A DNA stretch of 64,000 nucleotides from contig NZ_CP042913.1 in assembly GCF_008065115.1 (NCBI RefSeq), forward strand, positions 381,211-445,210, given 5' to 3'. This document shows, one piece after another, positions 39,558-64,000 of this stretch (positions within the stretch are counted from its first letter, which is position 1; every line of letters begins with the position of its first letter). The stretch comes from Bythopirellula goksoeyrii. GTDB taxonomy: Bacteria > Planctomycetota > Planctomycetia > Pirellulales > Lacipirellulaceae. The notes beneath the pieces are model-generated. The model was not told where the DNA came from. It was given only the letters and a program-made list of their open reading frames with translations, and did not search any database. Position numbers and translations under genes: made by a program.

Positions 39558-40782
39558 AGGAATTGAGCAGCTGGAGCCCGTTGGCGGGGCACCAGGCAAT
39601 GTAGTCCGCCGCAGCTCGAACGGGTAAGTTGGGGTCGGATCGTAGCCGATGGATCGAGAGGGCGGCGTTGTTGATCGCCGCCATGCAAGCAGAGAGACCT
39701 GGCCGACGGGTATGGTGACGATCCTCGTCCCACCAGCGGTCTTTCAGAAAGTGCAAGCTGTTTTCTATTCGCCAGTGCTGGCGAACGTGCCGCAAGAGAT
39801 CGGCGGCGGTGACCTGATTGGGATCAAGGCTGCTCACATAGTAGCGAGTATCATGCAGAACGATTTTGCCATCATCAGCACGTAACTCACGATCTACACG
39901 CAGAGCAATTTGACAACCGGACAGATCGAGCGTCTCCCGGATATAATCCGCGTTGTCTAAATCCACCCATAAACGACGGGTTTCCTGCAAGGCCCCTTTT
40001 TTTCGGTCGTCTTGGCTGCCGGCATTCGCTCGGCAGCTTGGGCGAAGCAGTGTTCTAAAGCGTCAAGCGTATCCCCCTGGTTGGCCTCGATCTGTAACAA
40101 ATAGTCGCGATTCTTTTTGCAGATCAGCTCGGCCAACGGACGCTGGGCGAACATCGCGTCACCAGTGATTAGCTGTAACATCGGATAGGTGTCGAGCAGT
40201 GTTTGCAGATGACGACGCAAGAGGGTCGGTTCGTTGGTTTTCTCGGCCCCAGTCGACCATTGGCCAACAACTGCTTGCAGGTCATGCACAAACGCGTTGA
40301 GCATATGCAGCGGACGACCGTTGTCGTCAAGTCCTTGCTTAGCCGTTTTCCCGTCGACGGCAACCACTCCTTCGCTGGGCGTTTCCGTTAAACAGTTCCG
40401 CAACCAGACGTCCAACGCTGCTTGAAACTCAGACACACTACATTGGGCCAACGTGCGGCTAAGCGTGGTGGCACAAGGGGGTTCATCTCGATCAAATCCT
40501 AGCGGCTCCTTGAGTTCATTCCAGTGAATGCCGGCCCAGCGAACGAGCACTTCCATTTCGCGAATCCGAGCCAGCATTCCCAGCAACATGAGAGTAACGA
40601 TGCCAGCAAACGGATGTCGCACGCCCCGTGGGCAACAGGGATCGTCGAGTTGAGAAAACGCGTCGAGAAGAGTTTCAGTATGCACCGTAAAGGCTCCTTC
40701 CAAGAAAAGAGCCCCCCTGATATGCCTATCTACGGGGTGAATACGGCTTAGGTTCGGCTAAAAAGACTTTGCAGTTCTTCTG
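39540..40782 (-). mobile_element. ISAs1-like insertion sequence, 1243 bp
   Basis: A complete element between purC and aroC. It has 18-bp terminal inverted repeats (16 of 18 matching), flanking 10-bp direct repeats ACTAACATTC, and a transposase of the ISAs1 family on the minus strand. The size is normal for that family. The intact target duplication indicates insertion without later rearrangement. It lies in intergenic DNA and does not disrupt a recognisable gene. Confidence 0.93.
39556..40685 (-). pseudogene. ISAs1 family transposase in two frames
   Basis: The first part (40685 to about 40010) holds the family's N-terminal domain (DPCCPRGVRHPFAGIVTLMLLG) and the start of the DDE domain (VVAVDGKTAKQG, then LITGDAMFAQ). 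The second part (39990-39556), in the -1 frame, holds the rest (DTRYYVSSLD, then QHWRIENSLHFLKDRWWDEDRHH, with the catalytic Glu). The switch is at a run of seven A then four G (about 40001-40015); the upstream frame ends soon after at a TAG. Either one A was lost from an original A8, or -1 slippage on A AAA AAG joins the frames. GTG at 40685 was chosen for its GGAG 8 bases upstream. Confidence 0.88.
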
Positions 40783-40963: not shown

Positions 40964-42103
40964 ATGCTCCGTTATTGGACCGCCGGTGAATCCCACGGCA
41001 AAACATTGATTGCCCTGGTGGATGGTTTCCCCGCAGGGGTGACGATCGACACCGATGTAATCGACGTGGAACTCAAACGTCGTCAGGGTGGCTATGGTCG
41101 CGGAGGTCGACAACGGATCGAGACCGATAAGGTTGACGTGCGGACGGGTGTCTGGCACGGCATGACCCTGGGCAGCCCGATTGCGCTGGAAGTAGTTAAC
41201 CGCGACTACAAGCTCGAACGACTCGACGATCTGCCGCGCCCTCGACCAGGTCACGGCGATCTCACCGGTGCGATCAAGTTTCTCGGTAGCATCCGTGGAA
41301 TCCTGGAACGGGCATCGGCGCGCGAAACGGCTGTTCGGGTAGCAGCTGGTGCACTTGCTAAACAATTGCTCTCCGCGTTCGATATCACAGTCTTCGGCTA
41401 CGTTACCGAGGTGGGGGGAGAAGAAATCAAACCAGTCGAGGGAACGCTGGACGAATTGCGCGCGATCCGCGATAAGAGTGAATTGTATGGTTTGAACCTG
41501 GAACGCGATCCCGCAATCAAGGCACTCATCGACCGCGCCGGCAAGGACGGGGACACGCTCGGCGGCATCATCGAAGTGCGGGTCGATGGTGTTCCCTTCG
41601 GCTTGGGAACGCATGCTCAGTGGGACCGCAAGCTTGATGGCCGACTAGCTCAAGCAGTGATGGCCGTCCAGGCGATCAAAGGGGTCGAAATCGGCATGGG
41701 TTTTGAAGCCGCTCGTCGTCCTGGTTCCCAAGTGCATGATCCCATTCATTATGACGCCAGTAAGAAAGAGACATCCAGTCTTGGCTACACGCGTCCCACG
41801 AACAATGCCGGCGGTTTGGAAGCTGGCATGACCAACGGACAGCCGATCGTGATTCGAGCAGCCAAGAAACCGATCAGCACTCTGGCCAAGCCGCTTGAGT
41901 CAATCAACCTCGACACCAAAGAACCCGAAGAAGCTAGCTACGAACGGAGCGACGTCTGTGCAATCTCCGCTGCAAGCGTAATCGTCGAAAATGTTGTGGC
42001 CTTTGAGGTCGCCTGTGCCGTCGTCGATAAATTCGGCGGTGACAACTTGCCTGAAATGTTAGGCCGCTACGAACTGTTTTTGAAAATGGCCCGCGATCGA
42101 TAA
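40964..42103 (+). CDS. aroC: Chorismate synthase
   Basis: Converts 5-enolpyruvylshikimate 3-phosphate to chorismate, the last step of the common aromatic pathway, using reduced FMN. 379 residues. The N-terminal signature is GESHGKTLIALVDGFPAG, then RRQGGYGRGGRQRIETDKV, HGDLTGAIKF and ERASARETA. The C-terminal region SNVCAI-type (RSDVCAISAASVIVENVVAFE) is intact. The start is preceded by a CTAACC/CTAGCC leader with no Shine-Dalgarno sequence. Confidence 0.97.
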   Translation: MLRYWTAGESHGKTLIALVDGFPAGVTIDTDVIDVELKRRQGGYGRGGRQRIETDKVDVRTGVWHGMTLGSPIALEVVNRDYKLERLDDLPRPRPGHGDLTGAIKFLGSIRGILERASARETAVRVAAGALAKQLLSAFDITVFGYVTEVGGEEIKPVEGTLDELRAIRDKSELYGLNLERDPAIKALIDRAGKDGDTLGGIIEVRVDGVPFGLGTHAQWDRKLDGRLAQAVMAVQAIKGVEIGMGFEAARRPGSQVHDPIHYDASKKETSSLGYTRPTNNAGGLEAGMTNGQPIVIRAAKKPISTLAKPLESINLDTKEPEEASYERSDVCAISAASVIVENVVAFEVACAVVDKFGGDNLPEMLGRYELFLKMARDR

Positions 42104-43493: not shown

Positions 43494-44936
43494 TCATTTT
43501 TCAAGAATATCAACTACTGAATCTCTATTCCCGGTACCATTATCTGAAGCTCTCCGACCGATTTCTGCTTGGCGCATTGCCGTAGCTTGATTCGCCAAAA
43601 AACGTGCCGGTAAGCTTGAATCAAGTTTCACGAGTTCAGATAATAGCGCCTCGACCTGTGCGAATTCACCCGCTTCGTAGTTTTGCAGTGCTTGGGTATA
43701 TTGCTCGAGATGCCTCATACGTTCCGCCAAAGAACTTGGTGGATAGACTGCAAATAATTCCACCGGTTTCTCCAGTCCGGGTAGCCGAGCCGTACAAACC
43801 CGTAGGGTAAGGAATTTGTTCGTCAGTTTCTTCTGTGTGGCTCCCGTGATGAGCACTGGTGTCTCAAGCTGCTTTGTTGCACCCTGAACTCGACTGGCTA
43901 GGTTGACGTTGCTTCCTCGTGGCCCGTACTTCAAGCGACTCTGAGTCCCCGCGTTGCCTACCAACACTTCCCCCGTGTGTATGCCAATGCCCAATTCCAA
44001 GGGAGCTTGAATCGTGGGTAGCCACTTCTCAGAGACGTGTGTCAAGGTATCAGACATTGCAAGTGCCGTCCCACATGCCAAGTCTGCCTGTTCGGATTGG
44101 TCGAGTGGTGCATTCCACATCGCCAGCAGTCCGTCGCCGAAGTAGTCCACTATAATGCCTGCATGCTCAATCACCGCTGCGGTGAAAACTTCCATCACAT
44201 CGCCGAGCAGCCGATAGCACTTGTCCGGTGGCAGACTCTCCGCCAAAGAAGTAAATCCGCGTAAATCGGAAAACAGCAGCGTTACTTCTCGTAGTTGGCC
44301 AGCAAGACACTCCGGATGGCGTTGAATATGCCCCGCAACTGTCGGTGAGAAGGCCTGTTCCAACAACGCAAGGCTGCGTGCAGCGGCAGTCTCTTGCTTG
44401 ATACGTGAAATTCCCACCGCAAGCGATTCGGCCAGCACCTGGAGCATCCGCGCTTCGAATGGCCGTATACCCCTCCGCCGGTTTTCTCCGGAATGGTGGC
44501 GCAAGCCATAGACACACCCTATCAACCCACCTGAAGAATCAAGTACTGGCGCGATGGCAATAGAATGCGATTCGCTGCCTCCTGATTCATCCTCAGAATT
44601 TGTTTGAAAATGAGTGACAGGGTTTTCTACGAGCATCGCCAAGATTGTTGGATCAGTCTCCACCTCCTGCGAGGAATCGATACCGTCAGTAGCAAGCTCT
44701 ATCCAACTCCCACCTTCTGACTGATTTTCACAACTCAATACCCAGGTAAAATCGAAACCGATTGTGTCTACAGCAAAGCGTGCAGCGTCAGCAAAGAAAG
44801 CTGGCGAGTCAGCAGACGCCCGTTGCAACTGGGCGATGGCCGACAGCCACCTGCTCCAGGTACGTGACGAAGGCCCATCAGTAAGGGTCACGTGCTCCTC
44901 GGGTTGCATCAAATCTGTGAGCGCAGAGTTATCCAA
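43494..44936 (-). CDS. GAF-domain class III adenylate/guanylate cyclase
   Basis: 480 residues. The GAF-like sensory domain is at about 25-190 (AIAPVLDSSGGLIGCVYGLRHH, MLQVLAESLAVGISR). The catalytic domain is at about 225-400, with the first metal Asp in LLFSDLRGFTSLAES and the second in VDYFGDGLLAMWNAP. The transition-state Asn/Arg pair is in SNVNLASRV. The base-selecting Lys/Asp are not canonical, so cAMP versus cGMP cannot be read off. The last 80 residues are helical. The start is a TTG with AGGT upstream. It is divergent from a redox gene series that includes a cyclic-nucleotide-binding protein, the obvious receiver of its product. Confidence 0.9.
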   Translation of the reverse strand: MDNSALTDLMQPEEHVTLTDGPSSRTWSRWLSAIAQLQRASADSPAFFADAARFAVDTIGFDFTWVLSCENQSEGGSWIELATDGIDSSQEVETDPTILAMLVENPVTHFQTNSEDESGGSESHSIAIAPVLDSSGGLIGCVYGLRHHSGENRRRGIRPFEARMLQVLAESLAVGISRIKQETAAARSLALLEQAFSPTVAGHIQRHPECLAGQLREVTLLFSDLRGFTSLAESLPPDKCYRLLGDVMEVFTAAVIEHAGIIVDYFGDGLLAMWNAPLDQSEQADLACGTALAMSDTLTHVSEKWLPTIQAPLELGIGIHTGEVLVGNAGTQSRLKYGPRGSNVNLASRVQGATKQLETPVLITGATQKKLTNKFLTLRVCTARLPGLEKPVELFAVYPPSSLAERMRHLEQYTQALQNYEAGEFAQVEALLSELVKLDSSLPARFLANQATAMRQAEIGRRASDNGTGNRDSVVDILEK

Positions 44937-45218
44937 TGGGGGGACCTATTCGTGTAAGAATGGGGGTACGCAGCATTGAGCATCGAGTTGTCGTGCTGGA
45001 TCTGGAAACTAAAGGGGTCTGTATTCCTTGCCGTTATCAGAAGATAGGTTATTTGGCACTGCTTCGATGGCGATACCTCCCTCAAAACCCATACCACCGA
45101 CCGCTAGCAGTGACTGCGATTTGTTCTCGACACATACTCGAGGTTGCGAAATAATGCCGTTCTTTGGCCTACTGCTGGCGCGGGAAGGCGATAGTTTGAG
45201 TTCTTGCAAGGATGCAAT

Positions 45219-46448
45219 GTGGATTGGCAATCGCTAGGCATGATTTCAGGCGCGGCTCTTTTGGGGGTGAGCGGGCTTCAGTCGCTTGCTGCCACAATCG
45301 CGAACGGCTCACGGAAAACCCGCCTCCGTCACCGTTACCAGGACCAACGGGCACGTTTCCAACAACAGCTTGCGAGCGAACTAAAATTTGCCCGTGCCAG
45401 CAAGCCGATTTTCCGTGCCTGGGCAGGAGAACGACCGTTGCGTGTCGCGGCGGTTGTCGATGAAGCCGTCGGCTACAAGAGTTTCTATCTGGTCGCCGCC
45501 GATGGCCGGGCCTTGCCCCACTTTGAGCCGGGACAGTACCTGACCTTCAGCCTTCGCGTTGATCCTCAACTCAAGCCAATCGTGCGGTGCTACTCTCTCT
45601 CCGAGCGCCCAAGAGAAGATTACTACCGCGTAACCATCAAACACACCGGGGCAGGGCAGGGGAGTAGCTATTTCCATAGCAGGGTGAAAGTCGGCAGCGT
45701 GCTCAATGTGCAGGCACCCCAGGGAGCCTTTTTCCTCGACCCCACAGACCAATTGCCCGTTGTACTGATCGCGGGGGGTGTCGGGATCACGCCCCTACTG
45801 AGCATGGCAAGTTCCATCGCCCACGAGCAGAGTCCTCGGGGCGTGTTCCTCTTCGCCGGTTTCCGCAATAGCAGCGAACACCCATTTCAGGAACAACTTT
45901 CTGCACTGACAGAACACGAAAACATCCACTACGACATCACTTATTCGCGTCCAAGCGCGGAAGACTTAATAGGGCGCGACTATCAATACCAAGGTCATGT
46001 TAATATCGTCCGACTGAGGCAGGTACTGCCGTCAAGCAACTTTCGTTTTTACCTTTGTGGCCCGGGCGCCATGATGGAGCAACTTGTTCCAGGACTCTTG
46101 AATTGGGGTGTTCCCGAAAAGCACATACACTTCGAAGCTTTCGGCCCTGCAACTGTTAGACGGATGAGAAAGCCAAGCAACGCGTCCTGCGATCCTTGTC
46201 GTGTCGAATTTGCCAGATCAGAAACCGATCTTCTTTGGTCAGGAGATTTTGCCGCATTGCTGGACTTGGCTGAAAGTGCCGGGATTGCTCTCGATTCCGG
46301 CTGCCGCGCGGGCAACTGTGGACAATGCCTTGTGAAGGTCCGCAATGGAAAGATCATTCACAGTAAAACACCTGGAGTACCACTTGGCGATGATGAGTGT
46401 CTTACTTGTATTGGCCAGCCCCAAGGCGAAGTTGTGCTGGATGCCTGA
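45219..46448 (+). CDS. Ferredoxin-NADP reductase-like protein with C-terminal 2Fe-2S domain
   Basis: About 409 residues. A hydrophobic N-terminal segment (about 8-28, ISGAALLGVSGLQSLAATIA) may anchor it to the membrane. The FAD domain has the RCYSLSERP motif and FEPGQYLTF. The NAD(P) domain has IAGGVGITPLLSM and YLCGPGAMM. The C-terminal plant-type ferredoxin has ligands CRAGNCGQC plus a distal Cys in ECLTC. The layout is like Hmp-type/phenol hydroxylase reductase proteins. GTG at 45219 was chosen for AAGGA 6 bases upstream; ATG at 45240 is an alternative. Its TGA abuts the ATG of the cytochrome gene (TGAATG), so translation is probably coupled. Confidence 0.9.
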   Translation: MDWQSLGMISGAALLGVSGLQSLAATIANGSRKTRLRHRYQDQRARFQQQLASELKFARASKPIFRAWAGERPLRVAAVVDEAVGYKSFYLVAADGRALPHFEPGQYLTFSLRVDPQLKPIVRCYSLSERPREDYYRVTIKHTGAGQGSSYFHSRVKVGSVLNVQAPQGAFFLDPTDQLPVVLIAGGVGITPLLSMASSIAHEQSPRGVFLFAGFRNSSEHPFQEQLSALTEHENIHYDITYSRPSAEDLIGRDYQYQGHVNIVRLRQVLPSSNFRFYLCGPGAMMEQLVPGLLNWGVPEKHIHFEAFGPATVRRMRKPSNASCDPCRVEFARSETDLLWSGDFAALLDLAESAGIALDSGCRAGNCGQCLVKVRNGKIIHSKTPGVPLGDDECLTCIGQPQGEVVLDA

Positions 46449-47492
46449 ATGAATTGGCGAACCGATAATTTGTGGAGTCTTGTCGGAAGGTATTTCCTGA
46501 TTGCCCTGGGGGCGAGCTGCGCACTATCTGCCAAAGCCGTCGAACACGAGGTTGGCTTGAACCCAATCATCCACGACCCCAGCAAGATTCTCGGTCCCGA
46601 CTCCTGCACCAAATGCCATGAGAAGGAGATGCAATCCTGGCACGGCACGCCTCACTTCTCAACCTTCGACTCGCTACATCGCAAGCCCGAGGCAAGAGCC
46701 ATTGCGGACCGACTGGGACTTGCGAGCATCAAGCGAAATGACACCTGCGTCGCTTGTCACTACACCGAGCAGCAAGTCGGCGAGCGAGTCCGTGTTGTTG
46801 CTGGTGTCTCGTGCGAGTCGTGTCATGGCGCTGCGCAGGATTGGATCGCACTGCACAACGACTATGGCGGCCCAAACATCACCAAGGAGAGCGAAACCCC
46901 TGAACACCGCCAACAGCGGATTGAAACAAGCGTCCAAGCCGGCATGAACAATCCCGCGAATCTCTACCTTATCGCCCGGCAATGCCTTGCATGCCATACA
47001 ACTCCCGATGAAGCACTGGTCAACGTCGGTGGTCATGCCGCCGGGAGCAAAGACTTTGAGCTCGTCTCTTGGTCACAGGGGATGGTACGGCACAATTTCC
47101 TCCGAACCGGCAGCGCATTAAACGCCGAGTCGACGCCCGAACAACTTCGAGTAATGTATGTTGTCGGTATCCTGGCCGATCTCGAAGCAAGCCTCCGCGC
47201 CACCGCTGCAGCTACCTCAAAATCCCCCTTCGGCATAGCCGCCGCCCAACGTGCGGCAGGACTAAAGCACAAGCTGTACGAAATCGACCAGCTCGTCACC
47301 GATACCTATATCAATGATGCCCTCGATGCAGCACTGGGCGTGCCACTAAAACTCAACCACAGCGCCGAACTCAACGCCGCCGCCGATACCATCGGTAAGT
47401 CTGCCTACGACTTCGCCGCCGAGGCCGACGGCAGTAAACTTGCTGCAATCGATCCGCTCTTGCCAACACCAAACCATTTCAAGAATCAATAG
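46449..47492 (+). CDS. Tetraheme c-type cytochrome (c554-like)
   Basis: 347 residues with an N-terminal signal segment (LVGRYFLIALGASCALSAKA) and four heme-binding motifs: CTKCH, CVACH, CESCH and CLACH. The spacing and the text SCTKCHEKEMQSWHGTPH are like the cytochrome c554 family, found in periplasmic electron carriers. The C-terminal 130 residues are helical and heme-free. It is translationally coupled to the flavin reductase gene and lies 15 bases before the ferredoxin gene. It probably passes electrons between the membrane partners of this operon in the periplasm. Confidence 0.92.
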   Translation: MNWRTDNLWSLVGRYFLIALGASCALSAKAVEHEVGLNPIIHDPSKILGPDSCTKCHEKEMQSWHGTPHFSTFDSLHRKPEARAIADRLGLASIKRNDTCVACHYTEQQVGERVRVVAGVSCESCHGAAQDWIALHNDYGGPNITKESETPEHRQQRIETSVQAGMNNPANLYLIARQCLACHTTPDEALVNVGGHAAGSKDFELVSWSQGMVRHNFLRTGSALNAESTPEQLRVMYVVGILADLEASLRATAAATSKSPFGIAAAQRAAGLKHKLYEIDQLVTDTYINDALDAALGVPLKLNHSAELNAAADTIGKSAYDFAAEADGSKLAAIDPLLPTPNHFKNQ

Positions 47493-47507
47493 AGTGAAAT
47501 TAATTTC

Positions 47508-49253
47508 ATGTCACTCCTAGAACTAGCCGTCGAGCGCCCGCAACGCTGGGATGTCCCCTTTGGCGATGCCATGGGGGAAGCTGAGGTCGATCAACTTTTG
47601 GAACTCGACCCATTTTACGAGATGGACCCGACGTCGTTTCCGGCGGCGCTTCCACTACGCGAAATACTCAAGAATGATACCCGGATCAACTACTACCCCG
47701 TTGGCGGGATCATCGTTAGAGAAGGTGACTACGGCAACAGTGCGTTTCTCGTTTTACGAGGTAAAGTGCAGGTTGTACTCTCGGGTCTCGATCCTGAGTT
47801 GCTTGGTCGGCAACCCATCCGGAAACAAGGGTTTCTCAAATCACTCGCCCGCATGTGGCGTAATCCGAATCTGCCAGAAGTTCGCGAGCAAATCCGTGCT
47901 CGGCAAGACCTCATCGTCAATGATAGTGATGAAGTGGCCGATCTATCCCAGACTCGTGTATTTCTACAGGATATTCCCCGTGTATTGGGGGACTCTCGGA
48001 CAGTGACTCTCAAGCCGGGCGAACTCTTTGGTGAATTGGCCGCACTCACACGAACTCCGCGCTCGGCCACGGTGCTGGCCGAGGGTGACGCTTGGCTCTT
48101 GGAAATCCGCTGGCAAGGCTTACGCGACTTGATGCGTCACACCGACTCTCTCCGCCAGCACGTTGAGCAACTTTACCGCCAGAACAGCCTGCGAGTCCAT
48201 CTCCGCGAGACACCGCTTTTGTCACAACTACCTGCCGAAGTACTGGAAAAAGTCGTCGCGGAAACCGACTTTGAATCTCACGGCAACTTTGAATGGCACG
48301 CCACGTTTGATAAAACTAGTCAGAGACACGGTGAGGCAATCATCACCGAACCGCTCATAGCCGAGGAAGGCTCGCTGTGCGATGGCATCTTGCTCGTGCG
48401 TTCTGGTTTTGCACGACTCAGCCACCACTTTGGCAGTGGCCAACGCACGGTTGCCTATCTAGGGAAGGGGCAGGTATTCGGCTTGAACGAGGCGATTGGA
48501 TCGGCCTTGGGTACTCTGCCGGTTACACTAACCCATTCCCTGCGAGCTCTGGGATACGTAGACGTACTACGGATTCCTCAGCGAGTGCTCAATGAACATG
48601 TATTTCCCCATTTCTCACGTGAGGCCTTAGCCGAGATTGCCAAGAAGCACGCCATCTCCTGCACCACCGAGCAATGCGAACCGTCGAACGGACAGCATGG
48701 CGGCGAACAACCACGAATCGATACGCCACTGTTGGAATTCTTGGTGGAGCGAAGGCTCATCAACGGCCAGCAGGCGATGCTTATCGACCTAGATCGCTGC
48801 ACGCGCTGCGACGATTGCGTGCGAGCTTGTGCCGCCACCCACAACAATAATCCTCGTTTTGTTCGGCAAGGCGAGCGCCATGGCCCATTCATGATTGCTC
48901 AGGCTTGCATGCACTGCGCAGACCCGGTTTGCATGATCGGCTGCCCCACCGGCGCGATCGGTCGCGACATGGCTACCGGAATCGTCCGTATCAACGACCT
49001 CACCTGCATCGGTTGCAGCACCTGTGCCAATAGCTGCCCCTACGACAACATCAACATGGTCGAAGTCCGCGACCGCAGCGGCGCGATTCTCGTCGATCAA
49101 AACACCCATCAGCCAATTCACAAGGCGACCAAGTGCGATCTCTGCGCCGATCAGTCTGGCGGCCCCGCCTGTCAGCGGGCCTGCCCCCATGATGCCTTGG
49201 TGCGCATGGATTTGGGTAACTTAGGTCAACTTTCCGACTGGGTGGGCCGCTGA
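47508..49253 (+). CDS. Cyclic-nucleotide-binding protein fused to four-cluster ferredoxin
   Basis: 581 residues with no signal peptide, so probably cytosolic. The first cyclic-nucleotide-binding domain spans about 40-220, with a roughly 70-residue insert. Its phosphate-binding cassette GELAALTRTPRSATV (from about 175) keeps the Glu and Arg that hold the cyclic phosphate. A second, degenerate domain lies at about 240-380 (VFGLNEAIGS, no Arg). From about residue 427 comes an HydN/DmsB-type ferredoxin with four 4Fe-4S motifs: CTRCDDCVRAC, CMHCADPVCMIGC, CIGCSTCANSC and CDLC...CQRAC. It reads as a nucleotide-gated electron carrier. The last 34 bases of its coding end are repeated at 52542-52575. 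Confidence 0.93.
   Translation: MSLLELAVERPQRWDVPFGDAMGEAEVDQLLELDPFYEMDPTSFPAALPLREILKNDTRINYYPVGGIIVREGDYGNSAFLVLRGKVQVVLSGLDPELLGRQPIRKQGFLKSLARMWRNPNLPEVREQIRARQDLIVNDSDEVADLSQTRVFLQDIPRVLGDSRTVTLKPGELFGELAALTRTPRSATVLAEGDAWLLEIRWQGLRDLMRHTDSLRQHVEQLYRQNSLRVHLRETPLLSQLPAEVLEKVVAETDFESHGNFEWHATFDKTSQRHGEAIITEPLIAEEGSLCDGILLVRSGFARLSHHFGSGQRTVAYLGKGQVFGLNEAIGSALGTLPVTLTHSLRALGYVDVLRIPQRVLNEHVFPHFSREALAEIAKKHAISCTTEQCEPSNGQHGGEQPRIDTPLLEFLVERRLINGQQAMLIDLDRCTRCDDCVRACAATHNNNPRFVRQGERHGPFMIAQACMHCADPVCMIGCPTGAIGRDMATGIVRINDLTCIGCSTCANSCPYDNINMVEVRDRSGAILVDQNTHQPIHKATKCDLCADQSGGPACQRACPHDALVRMDLGNLGQLSDWVGR
49210..49243 (+). repeat. 34-bp direct repeat, copy 1 (in ferredoxin gene end)
   Basis: The end of the CNB-ferredoxin coding region (encoding LGNLGQLSDWV). 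An identical 34-bp copy is at 52542-52575, just upstream of the cytochrome b gene. The two copies bracket the two minus-strand genes between them. Confidence 0.93.
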
Positions 49254-49263
49254 TCTTGGAGCA

Positions 49264-49351
49264 TGTGCGCAGCCCCGCTGGGGTTGGGGGCTCGGTGTTA
49301 AATCGCTAACCCAGGATGCGCTGCGCGCCTCTGGCTGTGGAGTTTAACACC
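49264..49351. repeat. Compound palindromic intergenic element
   Basis: An outer inverted pair GGTGTTAAA (49294-49302) and TTTAACACC (49343-49351) encloses an imperfect GC-rich hairpin (CCAGGATGCGC...GCGCGCCTCTGG). It is preceded by the small palindrome CCCCGCTGGGG (49273-49283). It sits just after the ferredoxin stop, at the left edge of the inserted segment. Similar elements are common in planctomycete intergenic DNA, as far as I recall; that family link is from memory. Confidence 0.6.
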
Positions 49352-49450
49352 TTCGGCGTACACAATGGCACTTTTGGGTTGCGGCCAGGTGTCGCGCTAG
49401 GTAACTCCGAAAGTAGATGGCATAGGAGGTTTACACCCCATTGGCGGTCC

Positions 49451-50575
49451 TTATTCCCTGCTGCTCGTCGTGAGACTGTGAACACGAGCAAAGACACTGG
49501 CCTGTTTATTGTCATTCCAAACTTGCTGAGATTCCTCGTGCGTCAAATCTGCCAACCGACCTAGCAGCATGAATGCCATAGACCCGTGTACCGTTTGCCA
49601 ATTCGACATTTCAATCAGGCTCGGTATGGAATTCTTCCTTACTTGCCGCAAGACAACTTGGCTTCCATCTAGGTTCAAGAGTAAGCCAACCGCTTTGTTC
49701 CTATCAGACCAATCCACGGAGTCGAGCAAGTTAACTGCATTTCGCACCAGCTCTATTGGAGGATTCAGCGATACCTCCGGGTGAGATGCAGCAATTTCGA
49801 AAATTATAGACAAGGCACGTGTTGAGTTGTTACGCACTGTCGAATTAGAGTCGCTCATGGCCGCGACGAGTTCGTGAACTACTTGCAACTTATCTGGTGC
49901 ATAGGCGATCACTTGAGCAGCGATTGCTCTTTGCTTTCCGTCATGTGAGGTGTGCAAGACATCAACCAATCGGCTCCAATGTTTCTGAGCGAGTGGAACA
50001 AATGCTTGCTGAGCAGCTCGAAGGTCAGAGTCTTCAGATAAAGAATGTCCCATCGTTCGGTCTTCGCCAAACAGGCCGCTCGCTGCTGCCTTTGCAAATG
50101 CCTGTTGCATTCTGCTATTCGCTGCCAGTATTTCAGAAGGAAGAGTTGCGGCTCCACTTGGTGCCTGCTTGTACTCCAATTGCTGAATCCCCGGTTCTAC
50201 TATGCCCAGATACACAACCATGCCAAGCTTGTCACCTTTGAGCAACATGCCGTAGATTGCTGCAAAACTCGCTTTGTGTACACCGGGGACAGCTTCGATT
50301 CGACGAATCACCTCAGCCACGTTTATCTCATCACCGGCAATGTTCGCGAGATTGTCTCCAACTTCCAACTCCGAAGCTTTGATGACCGCCTGCTGTGATA
50401 CTGAACGCAAACCAAAAGTCTCGATGCGAGCAATGATTGGCTTGGTTTCGGGAGCCGCAACATCGTCAGCCGAAGTGGCTGTTTCGACAGGGAATGAGAA
50501 AGTCGGCACGAGAGTGATGGCAAGGGAATAGCACCAGAACAATGCGTATCTTTGACCTGATTTAAGTCGTGCCAT
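49451..50575 (-). CDS. Exported POTRA-domain and HEAT-repeat protein
   Basis: 374 residues. A signal-like N-terminus (ALFWCYSLAITLVPTFSF) is followed by a POTRA-like domain at about 48-110 (ARIETFGLRSVSQQAVIKAS, then AEVIRRIEAVPGVHKASFAAI), the pattern of BamA/FtsQ-type modules. The second half is helical with HEAT-type repeats (GKQRAIAAQVIAYAPDKLQVV, NSTVRNNSTRALSIIFEIAA). There is no barrel. It lies 80 bases downstream of the S41 protease gene on the same strand, so the two probably act together outside the cytoplasm. The function is unknown. Confidence 0.75.
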   Translation of the reverse strand: MARLKSGQRYALFWCYSLAITLVPTFSFPVETATSADDVAAPETKPIIARIETFGLRSVSQQAVIKASELEVGDNLANIAGDEINVAEVIRRIEAVPGVHKASFAAIYGMLLKGDKLGMVVYLGIVEPGIQQLEYKQAPSGAATLPSEILAANSRMQQAFAKAAASGLFGEDRTMGHSLSEDSDLRAAQQAFVPLAQKHWSRLVDVLHTSHDGKQRAIAAQVIAYAPDKLQVVHELVAAMSDSNSTVRNNSTRALSIIFEIAASHPEVSLNPPIELVRNAVNLLDSVDWSDRNKAVGLLLNLDGSQVVLRQVRKNSIPSLIEMSNWQTVHGSMAFMLLGRLADLTHEESQQVWNDNKQASVFARVHSLTTSSRE

Positions 50576-50655
50576 TTCTTATTCTTCTAGTATATTTGGA
50601 ATAAGCAAGGTGATATTCTATCGATTCCTAAGATGCCGATATAGATGAGTCTAAC

Positions 50656-52149
50656 TCAACGTGTGGGCTTCTGGGATAAGTCCTTCCGTTCAGCAGAGCG
50701 AACAAACTCGATAGCACGCGCGAGAATTTCATCTTCGTTTGAATCTTCCGAAACATCAACCACGATATCTGGAGGAAATCCGATTTCTGAATAGTCTTGG
50801 CCCGTTGGAGATAGCACGGTCGGTTCGCCTCGAAAGGTGATCATCCGACCATCGGCGAGTTTCTCAAATTCCTTGCCGCAAAGAGCCCCTGCCGTAGTCT
50901 GGCCAATCACTGTGGCCCGCCGATTGTCATGCAGGGCCAGCGCTAGCATCTCAGCACAGCTTGCCGTGTTTTGGTTCGTCAGCAGAATGACTCGAACGAT
51001 TAAAGATCCTGGCTTTGACTTGAACGCAACCCGCCTACCGTTTTTGAACTGAAAAATCTGGAGGTACTTTTCGTCGAGAAAGATATCAGCCACGCCGTTT
51101 GTTTCTTCGGGGCGACCAGCACTATTGTCTCGTAGGTCGAGTATGATGGCTGGCGTTGTAAGAGTCACATGTTCGCGAACAAGATTCTTTACCCGCATTG
51201 CAATTCCGGATCCTTCGAAATCGGGAATCTTGATGTAGACAATTCCTGGGTCGATCACACTCGCCTTGATCCTTTCCGCAGCGGACTCTCTGCGGATGTT
51301 AAATGTGAGCGTTTGGGCACCTCGCTCGATCGTCATGCTCAAGTTAGTCCCAGTAGCACCTCTTAAGGACCTCAAAGCATCTGCAATTGTTTTTATTTCG
51401 GCGACGTCTTTGGTATTCACCCGCAGAACCACATCGCCATCCCGTAACCCCGCCTCAGCAGCGAGGGTGTCAGGCAAGACCTTGATGGTTGGCCAGTCGC
51501 TGGCATCTATACCGAGCAATCCACGCTCTTCACTCGGCTTGCTGCGCGCCTCAATCAAGTTCGTAAGCCATTCCGCTTGAGGTACGCCGAGTACTCCCGC
51601 AACCTTTGATCCAGTGGCACTGAGCATCGCAGGCAGGCCCGCGTTGACCAGTTGGTCTCGCTTCACCTCACCGTCGGCAATCGCCTCAATCTCGTTGAGG
51701 ACTAGTTCGAAGCTCTTGGTCTGAGAAGCAGTATCTACCCAGGAGTTGCGTTGAGAAGCGGGGATGTTGGTATGCCCCAGCGATTCGATTTCCTTGCAAA
51801 CCGCGTCAATGGTATGTCGCACAAGTTCCTCCGTCTTCTGCACTGGATACGCGTGAGCCAAGAGAACCGAGAGTGTGTAGTCAAGAGCGTTAGGAAAAGT
51901 ATCAACGACCTGAGCATCTCGACTCCTCTCTATCGCCTCGACAATCTCCTGCTCCTTGCCATAGACGAGCACTTCAGTCTCGGTGTTGGTTGACGTCTCC
52001 AGCTGCGACGATACGGCTGGTGGCACACCCAGACAACTAGAGAGAATTAGGAGGGTTCCCGCCTTAAGAAAGAGAGGAAGAGTCTGTGGCTTACAATCCC
52101 GAACGCCATTGCGCTCGCTAATCACAGATTCTGATCTTGAATGAAACAT
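50656..52149 (-). CDS. S41 family C-terminal processing-type protease with PDZ domain
   Basis: 497 residues. The N-terminal export signal is after a basic stretch (LPLFLKAGTLLILSSCLGVPPAV). A helical region is followed by a PDZ domain (about 225-300, LPDTLAAEAGLRDGDVVLRVNTKDV). The S41 catalytic core contains DLRDNSAGRPEETNGVADIFLD and the serine motif NQNTASCAEMLALAL. In CtpA-type enzymes the Lys general base lies in a TFGKG motif; here that place reads TTAGALCGKE, so the Lys is shifted or absent. It probably forms an operon with the POTRA/HEAT gene. It is periplasmic by inference. Confidence 0.85.
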   Translation of the reverse strand: MFHSRSESVISERNGVRDCKPQTLPLFLKAGTLLILSSCLGVPPAVSSQLETSTNTETEVLVYGKEQEIVEAIERSRDAQVVDTFPNALDYTLSVLLAHAYPVQKTEELVRHTIDAVCKEIESLGHTNIPASQRNSWVDTASQTKSFELVLNEIEAIADGEVKRDQLVNAGLPAMLSATGSKVAGVLGVPQAEWLTNLIEARSKPSEERGLLGIDASDWPTIKVLPDTLAAEAGLRDGDVVLRVNTKDVAEIKTIADALRSLRGATGTNLSMTIERGAQTLTFNIRRESAAERIKASVIDPGIVYIKIPDFEGSGIAMRVKNLVREHVTLTTPAIILDLRDNSAGRPEETNGVADIFLDEKYLQIFQFKNGRRVAFKSKPGSLIVRVILLTNQNTASCAEMLALALHDNRRATVIGQTTAGALCGKEFEKLADGRMITFRGEPTVLSPTGQDYSEIGFPPDIVVDVSEDSNEDEILARAIEFVRSAERKDLSQKPTR

Positions 52150-52541
52150 CGCAAAGCTCTTCCTCTATTATTGTAATCTCTTTGGAGTCTGCCGTCGATG
52201 CATCAGACTCCAATTGCTAAGGGGTAACGCCGTCGCGCATAGGCGTTATCCGTTCCAAGTATCGAGAAAAGCTTGGGATGGGGCTGCCACCTACTCTATT
52301 TGATTCATTGCGGCGGCGGCCCAATCCGCTGTACTTACAGTAGTTGGCTAAAATCCGCCGACACTTCGAAAATCCCTTACAGTGCAATTGTTACAGATCG
52401 ATGATTTGCCGAAATCATCGCAATCGCCCCCTAGGAAGGATACAGGACGATACCCACGAGCAATCATACAGTCGGGCCACAATTTGACCTCCTACTGCGT
52501 TTGAATTCACTGCATTACAGCACATTGGGGCAACGACAAAC

Positions 52542-52575
52542 ATTTGGGTAACTTAGGTCAACTTTCCGACTGGGT
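52542..52575 (+). repeat. 34-bp direct repeat, copy 2
   Basis: Identical to 49210-49243. Reading on in the same frame gives SDWVSC and a stop, close to the SDWVGR end of the intact gene. It is therefore a remnant of a coding end, not a random repeat. Confidence 0.93.
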
Positions 52576-52668
52576 CAGCTGCTAACTCAACCGCACCACT
52601 CTTCGCAGTTCTACCGCGACAAGGTACCTTAGAAACTCCAGAGGACGTTGCTAGTCGATCCTGCTTAG

Positions 52669-52689
52669 CCGGACTGCCACGCAGTCCGG
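52669..52689. repeat. GC-rich palindrome, copy 2
   Basis: Perfect 9-bp stem CCGGACTGC and GCAGTCCGG around a loop CAC. It is the reverse-oriented relative of 3118-3138. The single stem difference (C/G to T/A) is compensated on both arms. A second palindrome (GGGCGTGGCCC) follows at about 52699-52709. Confidence 0.7.
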
Positions 52690-52753
52690 GAACCCGTAGG
52701 GCGTGGCCCTCCGGCTGGGAAGATCGACTCACAGTTTTATATTCCAGAGTGCC

Positions 52754-53578
52754 ATGAATTCGTTCGCTAGTCGGAGACTACGAAACAGCGTCTTGACGCT
52801 AGTCGCTGCCATGGCGGTCGTGGGGTACGCCTGGTGGAGTGCAGGGCGGCTGGAAAGTCCAGGATTTGCGACCGGCTATCTATTGCTGGGATGCATTGCG
52901 TTTCTCGCACTGTACAACACCCGCAAGAAACTCCCCGTGCTTGCCTGGACTACCTCGGCAGGCTGGTTGCAAGCACACATTTACATCGCTCTCTTTTCGG
53001 CCATAGTGTTTGGCACTCATATCGTTTGGCGATTCCCCAGTGGCTACCTGGAAACCACGCTTTCTCTTATGTACGTGGTGACGTTTGTAAGTGGCCTCAT
53101 AGGGCTCTATTGGACACGTACCATCCCGCCAAAGCTAGCGCGCGTGAGTGAAGAGTTTCTCTACGAGCGTATCCCTGCATTGCGCACGGAGGTTCAAACA
53201 CGTGCCCAGGAGGCGGTTCTGGAAACGGTCCGCAGCACCGGCAGCGAGACCCTAGGCGACTTTTACACACAGCGTGTCCAAGGCTATTTAGAAAAACCAC
53301 GTGGCCTCTACTACTGGCTTCGGCCCACCAGCAGTGTACGAAAGAGATTACTTGCAGAATTGACCGAGGTCACTCGCTATCTCTCAGAACCTGAGCGAAA
53401 AGCTAGCGAGAAACTTTTCGCTCTGATCCGTCGCCGCGATGATTTGGATTTCCACGCCGCTATGCAGTGGCGTCTCAAGGCCTGGCTCTTTGTGCATATC
53501 GGCCTCACGTATCCACTACTTTTGATTGCCTGTCTTCATGGTTGGCTTGCCCATTTGTTCTACGGGGGAGCGTTGTGA
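52754..53578 (+). CDS. Membrane b-type cytochrome-like protein
   Basis: 274 residues with about four or five membrane segments: near 12-29, 40-57, 70-92, 104-122 and a C-terminal one near 248-270. His residues lie in the membrane segments (LQAHIYIALFSAIVFGTHIVW and FVHIGLTYPLLLIACLHGWL), spaced as heme ligands in cytochrome b561/ferric-reductase-like proteins. A charged loop of about 110 residues sits between the fourth and last segments. ATG at 52754 was chosen because the upstream extension is not hydrophobic. It overlaps the decaheme gene by 4 bases (GTGA). It probably links the quinone pool or cytosolic donors to the periplasmic hemes. Confidence 0.82.
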   Translation: MNSFASRRLRNSVLTLVAAMAVVGYAWWSAGRLESPGFATGYLLLGCIAFLALYNTRKKLPVLAWTTSAGWLQAHIYIALFSAIVFGTHIVWRFPSGYLETTLSLMYVVTFVSGLIGLYWTRTIPPKLARVSEEFLYERIPALRTEVQTRAQEAVLETVRSTGSETLGDFYTQRVQGYLEKPRGLYYWLRPTSSVRKRLLAELTEVTRYLSEPERKASEKLFALIRRRDDLDFHAAMQWRLKAWLFVHIGLTYPLLLIACLHGWLAHLFYGGAL

Positions 53579-55581
53579 GAGAACCGCTCACCCTCGAACA
53601 GGGAGACAACTACGAACGCCCCAATCAAAAGTGGGTCTGCGGTCTGGCCGAAGTGGGCCCCTCATGTCCGTTGGGTCCCGGTGGGAACGGACATTGTCCC
53701 CAGTCAGCCGCCTGCCATCCACTTCGTGACGGAGACCGCTGGCATTGTAATCGCTCGCCGCTCCGCGGTGGAGAATGTGAAAGGGGACCAACTCCTGAGG
53801 GCGGGTGTTGCCTTCGCTATGAGTGTCATCCGGTGCGTTCGCTCCGAGCAAAGCGGGGTCGATTCGTCGTTGGCTGTCTAGTGGCGACCTTCGGTGCGCT
53901 CTTTCTTCTGCTGAGCAGCAACAAGCGGAACGAAATGATTGCGCCAGGAAAGCTCTCCGTGCATCATGCCCAATTATTGGAGCGGGGCGAAGACAAGACG
54001 AACCGTTGCGCCAGTTGCCACGCCGCCGGAAACCAAACGATGAGCGAGTGGCTGGCCCATATAGCCGACCCCGCTCTCGCCACTCCAACACAAAGCATGC
54101 TTTGCATGGAATGCCACAAGAACGACTTCCCTCTCGAGGCGGCGCTTTGGGCACATAATATCGATCCTCTCATCTTGCTCGCCCAGAGCGAGTCGGAGCC
54201 CGATCATCACGACCCAGGGCTACCGCCCACGGCTAATAAGGGTTCCTTCGAGACGAATTTCACCCGTTGCCGCGATCCTACCACCGCCATCGCATGCAGC
54301 ACTTGCCATCAAGAACACCTTGGCCCACAGCACAACCTAACTGCGATCAGCGACCGTTCATGCCAGGCATGCCACCGCAATCAATTCCATAGCTTTGCCA
54401 CCGACCATCCCGAGTTCCACAATTGGCCAGAACATCGACGCACGCGAATCGCCTTCGATCATGCTCTCCACGAAGCAAAGCATTTCCCCGCAGAGAAACA
54501 TTCCTTCTCCTGCAGCGACTGCCATCGTCAGGATCCCAGCGGAGGGTTCCAGGAAACGCTTGACTACGAATCTACCTGTTCAAAGTGTCACGACAGTAAG
54601 ATCCAAGCAAGTTGGGCTACGGGTGTACCCGCAATCTCGCTGCCTATGATTGACGTTGACTCATTGGAAGCAGCAGAACACGACATTGGACCTTGGCCCG
54701 AGAACGCAATGGGAGATTTCGACGGCGCACTTCCCCTGTTCACGAAACTCTTGTTACTAGTTGATGCTCAAGCCGCCGAGGCAATAGACACGCTAGGAGC
54801 CGACTTTGATTTCTACGACATCGATCCCAATGACCCCGTACAATTGACGGCAGCAGCAAACCTCATCGACGCCACCAAACAGTTAATTGCCGATCTACAA
54901 ACCAAAGGCCAAGCGGCTATCGGCACACGACTGGAGAGACTACTAGGTCGATCCGTCACTCCCACCGAACTAGCGGCCGCCACAGCGCATCTCTCGCCCG
55001 CCAGCATTGCGGTCGTCGCCGAGGATTGGCTAGGCGGAGAAAACGGCGATTCCTCAGAAGGCAATAACCCCGAGCGAGTTACTGCAGGAGGTTGGTATAC
55101 TGATCCCATAACGCTCAGTCTCCGCTATCGCCCCACGGGACATGCCGACGCTTTTCTAACTGCCTGGATCGACATTCTGGCAGAAGCCAGCGGAGGCGAG
55201 CACAATACTGCCGCGAATAAATTGCTTGACCAAGCGATGAAACCAACTGCCGTCGGCATGTGCGGCAGTTGCCACAGCATCGATCGCTCAGATTCAGGCC
55301 AGTTGAAAGTCAATTGGTTTGCCAAGCAATCAAACGAACACGGTACCCCGTTCACCGTCTTCTCCCACGCCCCGCATGTTATGCAAGCCGAATTGGCTGA
55401 CTGCACCGCCTGTCACCGAATGAATGCATCGGCCAAGGTGATGGACACCTACACCCAAACTGATCCCGACAAGTTCACTCCCGAGTTCCACGAGTTAACC
55501 CGCCAAGACTGCGCCGAATGCCACACTCCCAATGCCGCAGGCGATAGCTGCACGCAATGTCACCGCTATCACGTGCGTTAA
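53575..55581 (+). CDS. Decaheme cytochrome c with Cys-rich cytoplasmic domain
   Basis: 668 residues from a GTG that overlaps the preceding TGA. Residues 22-84 contain nine cysteines in a pattern with two CxxGPxxxGxC units (CPLGPGGNGHC and CERGPTPEGGC) plus RDGDRWHCNR; this domain is unfamiliar to me and probably binds metal or an Fe-S cluster. One membrane span is at about 95-115 (FVVGCLVATFGALFLLLSS). The rest is periplasmic with ten CxxCH motifs: CASCH, CMECH, CSTCH, CQACH, CSDCH, CSKCH, CGSCH, CTACH, CAECH and CTQCH. A roughly 200-residue heme-free insert separates the sixth and seventh. It is the last gene of the redox series. Confidence 0.9.
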   Translation: MREPLTLEQGDNYERPNQKWVCGLAEVGPSCPLGPGGNGHCPQSAACHPLRDGDRWHCNRSPLRGGECERGPTPEGGCCLRYECHPVRSLRAKRGRFVVGCLVATFGALFLLLSSNKRNEMIAPGKLSVHHAQLLERGEDKTNRCASCHAAGNQTMSEWLAHIADPALATPTQSMLCMECHKNDFPLEAALWAHNIDPLILLAQSESEPDHHDPGLPPTANKGSFETNFTRCRDPTTAIACSTCHQEHLGPQHNLTAISDRSCQACHRNQFHSFATDHPEFHNWPEHRRTRIAFDHALHEAKHFPAEKHSFSCSDCHRQDPSGGFQETLDYESTCSKCHDSKIQASWATGVPAISLPMIDVDSLEAAEHDIGPWPENAMGDFDGALPLFTKLLLLVDAQAAEAIDTLGADFDFYDIDPNDPVQLTAAANLIDATKQLIADLQTKGQAAIGTRLERLLGRSVTPTELAAATAHLSPASIAVVAEDWLGGENGDSSEGNNPERVTAGGWYTDPITLSLRYRPTGHADAFLTAWIDILAEASGGEHNTAANKLLDQAMKPTAVGMCGSCHSIDRSDSGQLKVNWFAKQSNEHGTPFTVFSHAPHVMQAELADCTACHRMNASAKVMDTYTQTDPDKFTPEFHELTRQDCAECHTPNAAGDSCTQCHRYHVR

Positions 55582-63504: not shown

Positions 63505-64000
63505 CTATTGAATCTCAAACTCATAGGAACTGTGATGGAAATCGGTGATCCCTTCGTTCATCGCCCGCTGCATCTCCATCGTCGCACCGCAAAACCGCAT
63601 GAAGTAGATGGGCTGCGTCCGCATCCGCAACCGGAAAGAGAGCCGATAGTAACCAGGCTCCTTGATTAACTCGGCTGGGATTTTGTAGGGAGCCCGACGC
63701 GAACCGAGCGGTGCGAGCGACCGACCTTCCATACGAATAAAGGGAGGATGATTCATCACGGAAATCGGCTGCGCCCCCGGACGCAAGTAGGGCAACTGGT
63801 CGATGTCGACATTCACGGGCAAGAAGAATTCACGATCAGTACCTGTGGCTCCCGTGATGAGGAACATCGTCTGTAGATTGAATAATTGCCAATCGTAGGG
63901 AATCCGTTTGTTGCGGACATCTTCGGAGTGAATGTCCGCTACGTCCCCCCATCGATCCGTGTAACCCGATTCCCATACTCGTTGCCCACGCGGCCCAATC
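63505..64000 (-). CDS. Partial gene, unknown protein (runs off window)
   Basis: The frame is open from the window edge to the stop at 63505, so only the C-terminal 164 or so residues are visible. An internal Met at 63867 is probably not the start, since the upstream sequence (WESGYTDRWGDVADIHSEDV) continues in frame without a stop. The text YYRLSFRLRMRTQPIYFMRFCGAT looks beta-rich, of a cell-surface or c-type-cytochrome-associated kind, but no motif is decisive. It is followed 11 bases later by the barrel-like gene. Confidence 0.7.
   Translation of the reverse strand, partial: IGPRGQRVWESGYTDRWGDVADIHSEDVRNKRIPYDWQLFNLQTMFLITGATGTDREFFLPVNVDIDQLPYLRPGAQPISVMNHPPFIRMEGRSLAPLGSRRAPYKIPAELIKEPGYYRLSFRLRMRTQPIYFMRFCGATMEMQRAMNEGITDFHHSSYEFEIQ

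Follow-up and report, generated by a model that had tools for sequence, protein, structure and literature searches.

A PCC4-type redox gene set of Bythopirellula goksoeyrii with a cyclic-nucleotide-binding domain on its iron-sulfur subunit and a divergent nucleotide cyclase: candidate control of electron flow by a second messenger

A redox gene set and its neighbourhood were analyzed in a stretch of 64,000 nucleotides from the planctomycete Bythopirellula goksoeyrii (NZ_CP042913.1, 381,211-445,210, forward strand), hereafter the window, whose own positions serve as coordinates throughout. The central element is a protein (P0004; 47508-49253, plus strand) in which two cyclic-nucleotide-binding (CNB) domains in tandem (cNMP_binding, 7.4e-25) are fused to a ferredoxin with four 4Fe-4S clusters (several Fer4 models). 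On the same strand it is preceded by the genes of a FAD/NAD(P)H reductase with a C-terminal 2Fe-2S (Fer2) domain and, by eye, an N-terminal hydrophobic stretch (45204-46448; PF00970, PF00175 and PF00111) and of a tetraheme c554-type cytochrome (46449-47492; four CxxCH motifs, PF13435, 1.6e-16), and is followed by those of an inner-membrane diheme b-type cytochrome (P0007, the inner-membrane protein of PCC4-type clusters; 52703-53578, first ATG at 52754) and of a decaheme c-type cytochrome with a Cys-rich N-terminus and one transmembrane helix by eye (53467-55581; ten CxxCH motifs, PF14522). A class III nucleotide cyclase of 480 residues with an N-terminal GAF-like region (43494-44936, minus strand; PF00211, Guanylate_cyc, 2.1e-19) is divergent from the reductase gene. 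These genes had been put forward in a first-pass annotation of the same DNA as one set of six, and the divergent cyclase, the FAD/NAD and Fer2 domains of the reductase and the heme counts of both c-type cytochromes were borne out. The arrangement is real, conserved and largely as first observed.

The continuity and the limits of the set had to be redrawn. Two minus-strand genes, for a HEAT-repeat protein (49451-50575; PF13646 and PF13513, both below cut-off) and an S41 protease with a PDZ domain (50656-52149; PF03572, 1.9e-25), break the line and separate the fusion gene from the membrane-protein gene by a gap of 3.45 kb. No homologue of either was found in 140 other loci searched at 1e-10, and therefore both are regarded as intruders and were rejected as members of the system. 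Nor does the set end at 55581, since a gene for a porin-like outer-membrane protein with a C-terminal Phe (61538-63493, minus strand), recognized by its orthology to an outer-membrane-protein gene that recurs at related loci, belongs to it as well. This gene lies about 6 kb beyond the decaheme gene and adjoins that of a pentaheme cytochrome (63505-64000, minus strand), also a member, of which only the C-terminal end falls inside the window; the gene runs past the window end and holds five CxxCH motifs in full.

In the fusion protein the phosphate-binding cassette of the first CNB domain (CNB-A; residues 171-187, 48018-48068) is intact, the cassette of the second (CNB-B) is degenerate, and the Fe-S clusters are located at residues about 423-570. 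The cassette Glu and Arg (E176 and R185) are spaced nine residues apart, as in CNB receptors. Among 138 orthologues G175 and E176 are each retained in 138 and R185 in 132, in agreement with the earlier claim of an intact cassette, and cassette-bearing orthologues span Planctomycetota, Pseudomonadota, Verrucomicrobiota, Nitrospinota and other phyla. Residue 186, directly after the Arg, corresponds to the cGMP position of PKG and CNG proteins and is Ser or Thr in 118/138 orthologues. The fusion and its four clusters were likewise recovered, but their assignment to an eight-iron class was not: the clusters are of the 16Fe type found in HydN, DmsB, HybA and NrfC, and each of the 16 cluster cysteines is retained in at least 137 of the 138 orthologues. 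The protein also matches PF13247 (38.0 bits against a cut-off of 26.2). An AlphaFold2 model of the protein (mean predicted local distance difference test, pLDDT, 79.5) had as best Foldseek matches PKG I beta with cGMP (4z07, E 9.4e-17) and PKA R chains. As far as sequence can tell, the fusion carries a cyclic-nucleotide receptor domain under strong cassette constraint, which is predicted to bind a ligand.

Variants of this architecture were observed. The fusions of three loci have long inserts between the CNB domains, with an FHA domain detected by Pfam in two (L046, L051) and by eye in the third (L050); FHA is shared by some fusion inserts and some linked cyclases. A distant CNB-ferredoxin subfamily (L052-L076, L192, L196, L199 and L204), often with a weaker relative of the membrane protein nearby, has the cassette Glu in 24/24 aligned rows and the Arg in 20/24, and a related cyclase is found near its genes in some loci (L057, L192, L196, L199 and L204).

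The distribution of the gene set was explored with the fusion protein as query in 392 genomes of the phylum, of which 77 matched at 1e-20 (distant subfamily included), and in a scan of named genomes, where the 80 best-scoring relatives, out of at least 537, belong to Planctomycetota, Pseudomonadota, Verrucomicrobiota, Nitrospinota, SAR324, Omnitrophota and Poribacteria. Neighbourhoods were counted over 137 distinct main-family loci (two duplicates dropped), taking for each gene only the loci with enough flanking sequence; the loci were picked by similarity, so that the counts are not population frequencies. The membrane-protein gene is present in 126 of 128 loci, the decaheme gene in 111 of 114 and the tetraheme gene in 101 of 122, and the reductase gene in 91 of the 113 with at least 3.5 kb upstream. 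Where each flank reaches 8 kb or more (84 loci), the porin-like orthologue is present in 46 loci and both this gene and that of the pentaheme cytochrome in 44, a pair which recurs. The fusion and membrane-protein genes are on the same strand and at most 300 bp apart in 132 of the 133 loci that have both, the window being the sole exception, and a chance neighbourhood was rejected for the redox core on these grounds.

The same association was seen among 248 genomes of the class. A membrane-protein match of at least 186 bits occurs in 33 of them, namely the 32 with a fusion match at 1e-100 and one more (G549) that also holds the fusion; 35 further genomes have weaker membrane-protein matches. 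The fusion of G549 was overlooked by the 1e-100 search and found on reading the region, and this search may have missed others. Among the matches listed, Bythopirellula polymerisocia is the named relative with the most similar fusion protein (86% over the best segment). In this species about 52 kb separate the membrane-protein gene and the fusion gene, on the assumption that contig C5 is one and the same.

The membrane protein has two His pairs, H92/H106 and H265/H279, all four invariant in a 34-row alignment (34/34), in line with its first description as a membrane b-type cytochrome. They are part of the motifs W88/H92/H106 and W261/H265/H279, which are accompanied by the sequence SGLIG; among 131 orthologues two WX3HX13H motifs are present in 123 and SGXXG in 116. 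Its AlphaFold2 model (pLDDT 94.4) contains five long helices (3-30, 36-58, 67-88, 97-130 and 211-269) that could be membrane helices. As to the decaheme cytochrome, conservation begins only near residue 49 (about 53611), so the open reading frame start at 53467 is doubted and the real start is probably near 53.6 kb. At 53611-53860 and in the orthologues a Cys-rich segment with repeated CxxGPxxxGxC-like units precedes the membrane helix; it had no Pfam match and may be a site for a metal or an Fe-S cluster on the cytosolic side, in contact with the fusion protein. The NCBIfam models TIGR03507 and TIGR03508 (MtrC/OmcA and DmsE decaheme families) matched only the tetraheme protein, far under the cut-off, and the porin-like protein had no Pfam match in the four relatives scanned.

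Of the 110 distinct loci whose upstream flank extends over 4.5 kb or more, 33 have a divergent cyclase gene within these 4.5 kb. In the class sample it is found in 14 of the 33 fusion-bearing genomes (those of the window, G430, G474, G490, G549, G152, G528 and seven of genus g10), and two of the 19 without it had less than 4.5 kb upstream (L178 and L187). When linkage was mapped on a tree of 100 rows, eight changes were required, at least five of them forced by supported branches, compared with 27 on average when labels were shuffled. The window genome has six class III cyclase matches in 6.47 Mb, which makes a chance neighbour unlikely given linkage in 33/110 loci; this excess does not amount to a formal p-value because the loci are related. 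On the downstream side, by contrast, only four main-family loci were seen with a cyclase within 6 kb (L136, L139, L152 and L153; L017-L162 covered). The idea that the linked cyclases are specific to the cluster was rejected, as their alignment matched 175 of the 248 class genomes at 1e-40. In genus g10 (L024-L029 and L031) a cyclase with FHA domains is located divergently upstream of the tetraheme gene, in a cluster that lacks the reductase gene.

The window cyclase has a complete catalytic set, with the metal-binding Asp residues D224 and D268 and the transition-state residues N345 and R349. Its sensor region, originally described as GAF, has a match below the Pfam cut-off (E 0.027, 15.4 vs 22.4 bits), and the assignment draws partial support from relatives: at E <=0.1, GAF (PF01590) was detected in five of 21 aligned cyclases of the window type (best 0.0002) and FHA in two, whereas FHA domains are present in 7/7 linked cyclases of genus g10. 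The pair that specifies the purine is Asp264/Gly338, and this Asp/Gly pair is found in 21/21 window-type and 7/7 g10 linked cyclases aligned. Among solved chains, 2w01 (E 8.8e-28), the guanylyl cyclase Cya2 of Synechocystis, is the most similar to the window cyclase in sequence. According to the portion of the literature consulted, adenylyl cyclases have Lys-Asp at these positions, guanylyl cyclases a Glu with a variable partner, and Cya2 the pair Glu-Gly (PMC4215837), and the substitution E488K confers adenylyl cyclase activity on Cya2 (PMC5995499). With Cya2 the window cyclase shares Gly in the second purine position and an acidic side chain in the position of the Lys, and it differs from Cya2 in having Asp instead of Glu and a GAF-like or FHA region instead of CHASE2. 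Neither the Glu of guanylyl cyclases at the first purine site nor the Lys with Asp/Thr of adenylyl cyclases was found in it, and since Asp264 is not Glu it is not classed as a guanylyl cyclase. The closeness of the Asp/Gly pair to the Glu-Gly of Cya2, together with the conversion of the latter by E488K, makes cGMP a plausible product.

The product of this enzyme could also act through another receptor, such as transcription factors or a CNB-bearing ABC ATPase, its location reflecting shared promoter control or inherited gene order. Divergent gene pairs are often co-regulated, as textbooks describe, and related cyclases are frequent outside the conduit loci; these facts fit such an explanation. 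The window genome encodes seven CNB proteins (eight matches), and by eye a canonical cassette is present only in the fusion and in an ABC transporter ATPase that carries a CNB domain at its C-terminus (L001; C1:3057541-3057795 of the same genome), which is a possible further target of cyclic nucleotides and lends this explanation additional support. The only Crp-type helix-turn-helix protein among these matches (L003) lacks the cassette Glu and Arg by eye, which weakens a classical CRP route and a purely transcriptional reading, although a receptor without a CNB domain might serve instead. The recurrence of the neighbourhood with two cyclase architectures, and also with the distant CNB-ferredoxin subfamily, likewise argues against action through another receptor, which is considered improbable.

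Loss of the cassette Arg was compared with cyclase linkage. Arg185 is kept in 32/32 aligned loci with a linked cyclase and lost in six of 106 in which none was seen, 27 of the latter (including L178, one of the six) having less than 4.5 kb upstream. Three losses are Arg-to-His replacements in genus g271 (L169, L172 and L173), without a linked cyclase, in a single clade (support 100/100) that is sister to L205 of G549, which has both the linked cyclase and the Arg. The other three (L177, L178 and L181) are in a clade that is also without reductase and tetraheme genes nearby. The co-occurrence of Arg loss and a missing linked cyclase is no more than suggestive, with few events to go by.

These data bear on the proposal that the CNB domains bind some other ligand, or only scaffold dimerization or docking, and that the adjacent cyclase is not the source of their signal. 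Domains of this kind can change ligand, as the CNB folds of trypanosomatid PKA bind nucleosides and not cyclic nucleotides (PMC10959531, as far as that source was consulted); the retention of the cassette in many loci without a linked cyclase, as well as the lack of a canonical cassette in CNB-B, would also be accommodated. Such a role is harder to reconcile with a cassette whose Glu and Arg are almost invariant, with the absence of Arg loss from every cyclase-linked locus and with a cyclase neighbour that recurs. On balance this proposal appears somewhat unlikely.

Gating by second messengers is well known for ion channels, kinases and transcription factors. The interpretation preferred here is that a PCC4 conduit is gated by a cyclic nucleotide, perhaps cGMP, through CNB-A of its Fe-S subunit, a claim held at slightly short of an even chance. 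The route of electrons would lead from NAD(P)H through the cytosolic flavin/2Fe-2S reductase and the cytosolic four-cluster fusion to the membrane protein with its two b hemes, and from there through the deca-, tetra- and pentaheme cytochromes to the porin complex at the outer membrane, where an extracellular partner may be contacted. Flow could run either way, the output direction being allowed also because a reductase is present in the window set. The fusion may be pictured as a PKG/PKA-like tandem CNB module in which a polyferredoxin replaces the kinase: a cyclic nucleotide bound in CNB-A would shift the hinge between the CNB module and the ferredoxin and alter docking or cluster geometry, and either change would open or close the passage of electrons from reductase to membrane or back. 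The divergent cyclase, with its GAF-like or FHA sensor region, would make the ligand, perhaps cGMP, in many Planctomycetia. The fuller version, in which the Fe-S subunit is a PKG-like receptor, a dedicated sensor cyclase switches electron flow by cGMP or a related nucleotide without new transcription, and the receptor half is spread over several phyla with the cyclase half as an add-on in Planctomycetia, is advanced more tentatively, as possible but short of probable.

The signal might in principle travel in the opposite sense, the redox state of the Fe-S clusters altering cyclic-nucleotide affinity so that the fusion reports or buffers the signal. Allosteric coupling is two-way in principle; the fusion gene, however, adjoins the membrane-cytochrome gene with great constancy (132/133 loci, as above), as expected of an electron carrier, and this scheme is very improbable.

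Several observations weigh against gating by a product of the linked cyclase. As far as the loci examined extend, the linkage is seen only in Planctomycetota: no divergent cyclase was scored in the named loci outside this phylum (some flanks being short), and the cassette persists there. In 13 of 20 loci chosen around strong cyclase matches the cyclase was alone (some contigs being short), the other seven comprising two with a C554-type cytochrome only, four with the distant CNB-ferredoxin and one with the main fusion. The linkage foreseen in the first-pass annotation thus holds for part of the family, while the redox set also occurs without a divergent cyclase outside Planctomycetota. All seven FHA-cyclase loci of genus g10 are without a reductase gene nearby, three linked cyclases (L019, L148 and L114) have Val or Ala where the transition-state Asn is expected, Asp at the Lys site is the usual residue of neither adenylyl nor guanylyl cyclases, and Val follows the cassette Arg in eight linked loci, where cGMP is not favoured. 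The contrast in Arg loss (6/106 vs 0/32) comes from few events and is not significant alone, and f2 genomes that lost the Arg hold cyclases elsewhere. The three Arg-to-His genomes keep one or two PF00211 matches of 23.5-38.4 bits (cut-off 21.9), and genome-wide loss of cyclases was rejected for them; by comparison, the linked cyclase of G549 scores 57.5 bits. One such match in each of the three, in a frame of about 920 residues, is found at a distance of 12-13 kb from the fusion gene.

The genus g271 gene of that size calls for a separate comment. G549 too has a cyclase-domain gene for about 920 residues, about 16 kb from its fusion gene, so that all four species of the genus concerned (G470, G518, G534 and G549) carry one 12-16 kb from the fusion. 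Frames of similar size occur in other genomes, and in the window genome the gene that probably corresponds to it (L082) was not matched by the cyclase model when one open reading frame of 678 residues was scanned. Farther upstream in the window, a reading frame that by eye resembles a piece of a transposase (39957-40703) adjoins a chorismate-synthase-like gene (40964-42103).

If the proposed gating is true, a cyclic nucleotide acting directly on an electron-transfer chain would represent a new mode of control for respiration or extracellular electron transfer, and the planctomycete cyclases would gain a clear target. Orthologues whose cassette Arg is replaced by His would serve as natural controls.

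The claim that no such system had been described does not stand, because the redox genes match PCC4 (He et al., 2017; PMC5566968). In the sections of that article consulted, PCC4 comprises a porin, multiheme cytochromes with four, five and ten hemes, an inner-membrane protein and other redox genes. The inner-membrane protein has five transmembrane segments, two WX3HX13H motifs and SGXXG. A PF13247 Fe-S gene precedes the membrane-protein gene in Subgroup II and is absent from Subgroup I, and Subgroup II was reported from Zeta-, Gamma- and other Alphaproteobacteria and Planctomycetes; in the hypothetical model given there, electrons enter from an extracellular donor (PMC5566968). The window set shares with Subgroup II the four-, five- and ten-heme cytochromes (the pentaheme gene being cut by the end of the window), the membrane protein with two WX3HX13H motifs and SGXXG, and the PF13247 Fe-S gene upstream of the membrane-protein gene, though 3.45 kb apart; it differs in being broken by two intruder genes and in having a cyclase at its head. 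The porin-like gene next to that of the pentaheme cytochrome is a candidate counterpart of the PCC4 porin. At a Mariprofundus locus (L125) the reductase, C554, fusion, membrane protein, decaheme (C10) and outer-membrane protein are all present. By gene content and motifs, compared with the published description, the redox genes of the window match a PCC4-type Subgroup II set.

Other known systems share single parts of this arrangement. As in ferric reductases and NADPH oxidases (FRD), the membrane protein has two HX13H helices, the third and the fifth, predicted to hold two b hemes, and a reductase is encoded close to it; the comparison with the FRD membrane domain was likewise drawn for the PCC4 protein (He et al., 2017; PMC5566968, sections consulted). 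The porin-multiheme cytochrome clusters of Verrucomicrobia, a related phylum, were also proposed to form a conduit of a porin and a periplasmic multiheme cytochrome, but with eight heme sites in their periplasmic cytochromes, and the words "cyclic" and "ferredoxin" are absent from the text of that article as consulted (PMC5615132). "Cyclic nucleotide", "cNMP" and "cyclase" do not appear in the main text of the PCC4 article, leaving aside its supplements, nor is a regulator named in its PCC4 sections consulted (PMC5566968), and a literature search that covered neither preprints, subscription papers nor supplements returned no report of tandem CNB domains on such an Fe-S subunit. With PKG and the PKA R subunit the fusion shares the tandem CNB fold and the canonical cassette in CNB-A, but about 60 residues are inserted in its CNB-A, its CNB-B cassette is degenerate, the two-domain superposition of the model is poor (root-mean-square deviation 10 to 19) and a four-cluster ferredoxin takes the place of the kinase as output. 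The conduit is therefore already a described candidate system, to which the CNB receptor on the Fe-S subunit adds an apparently unreported element.

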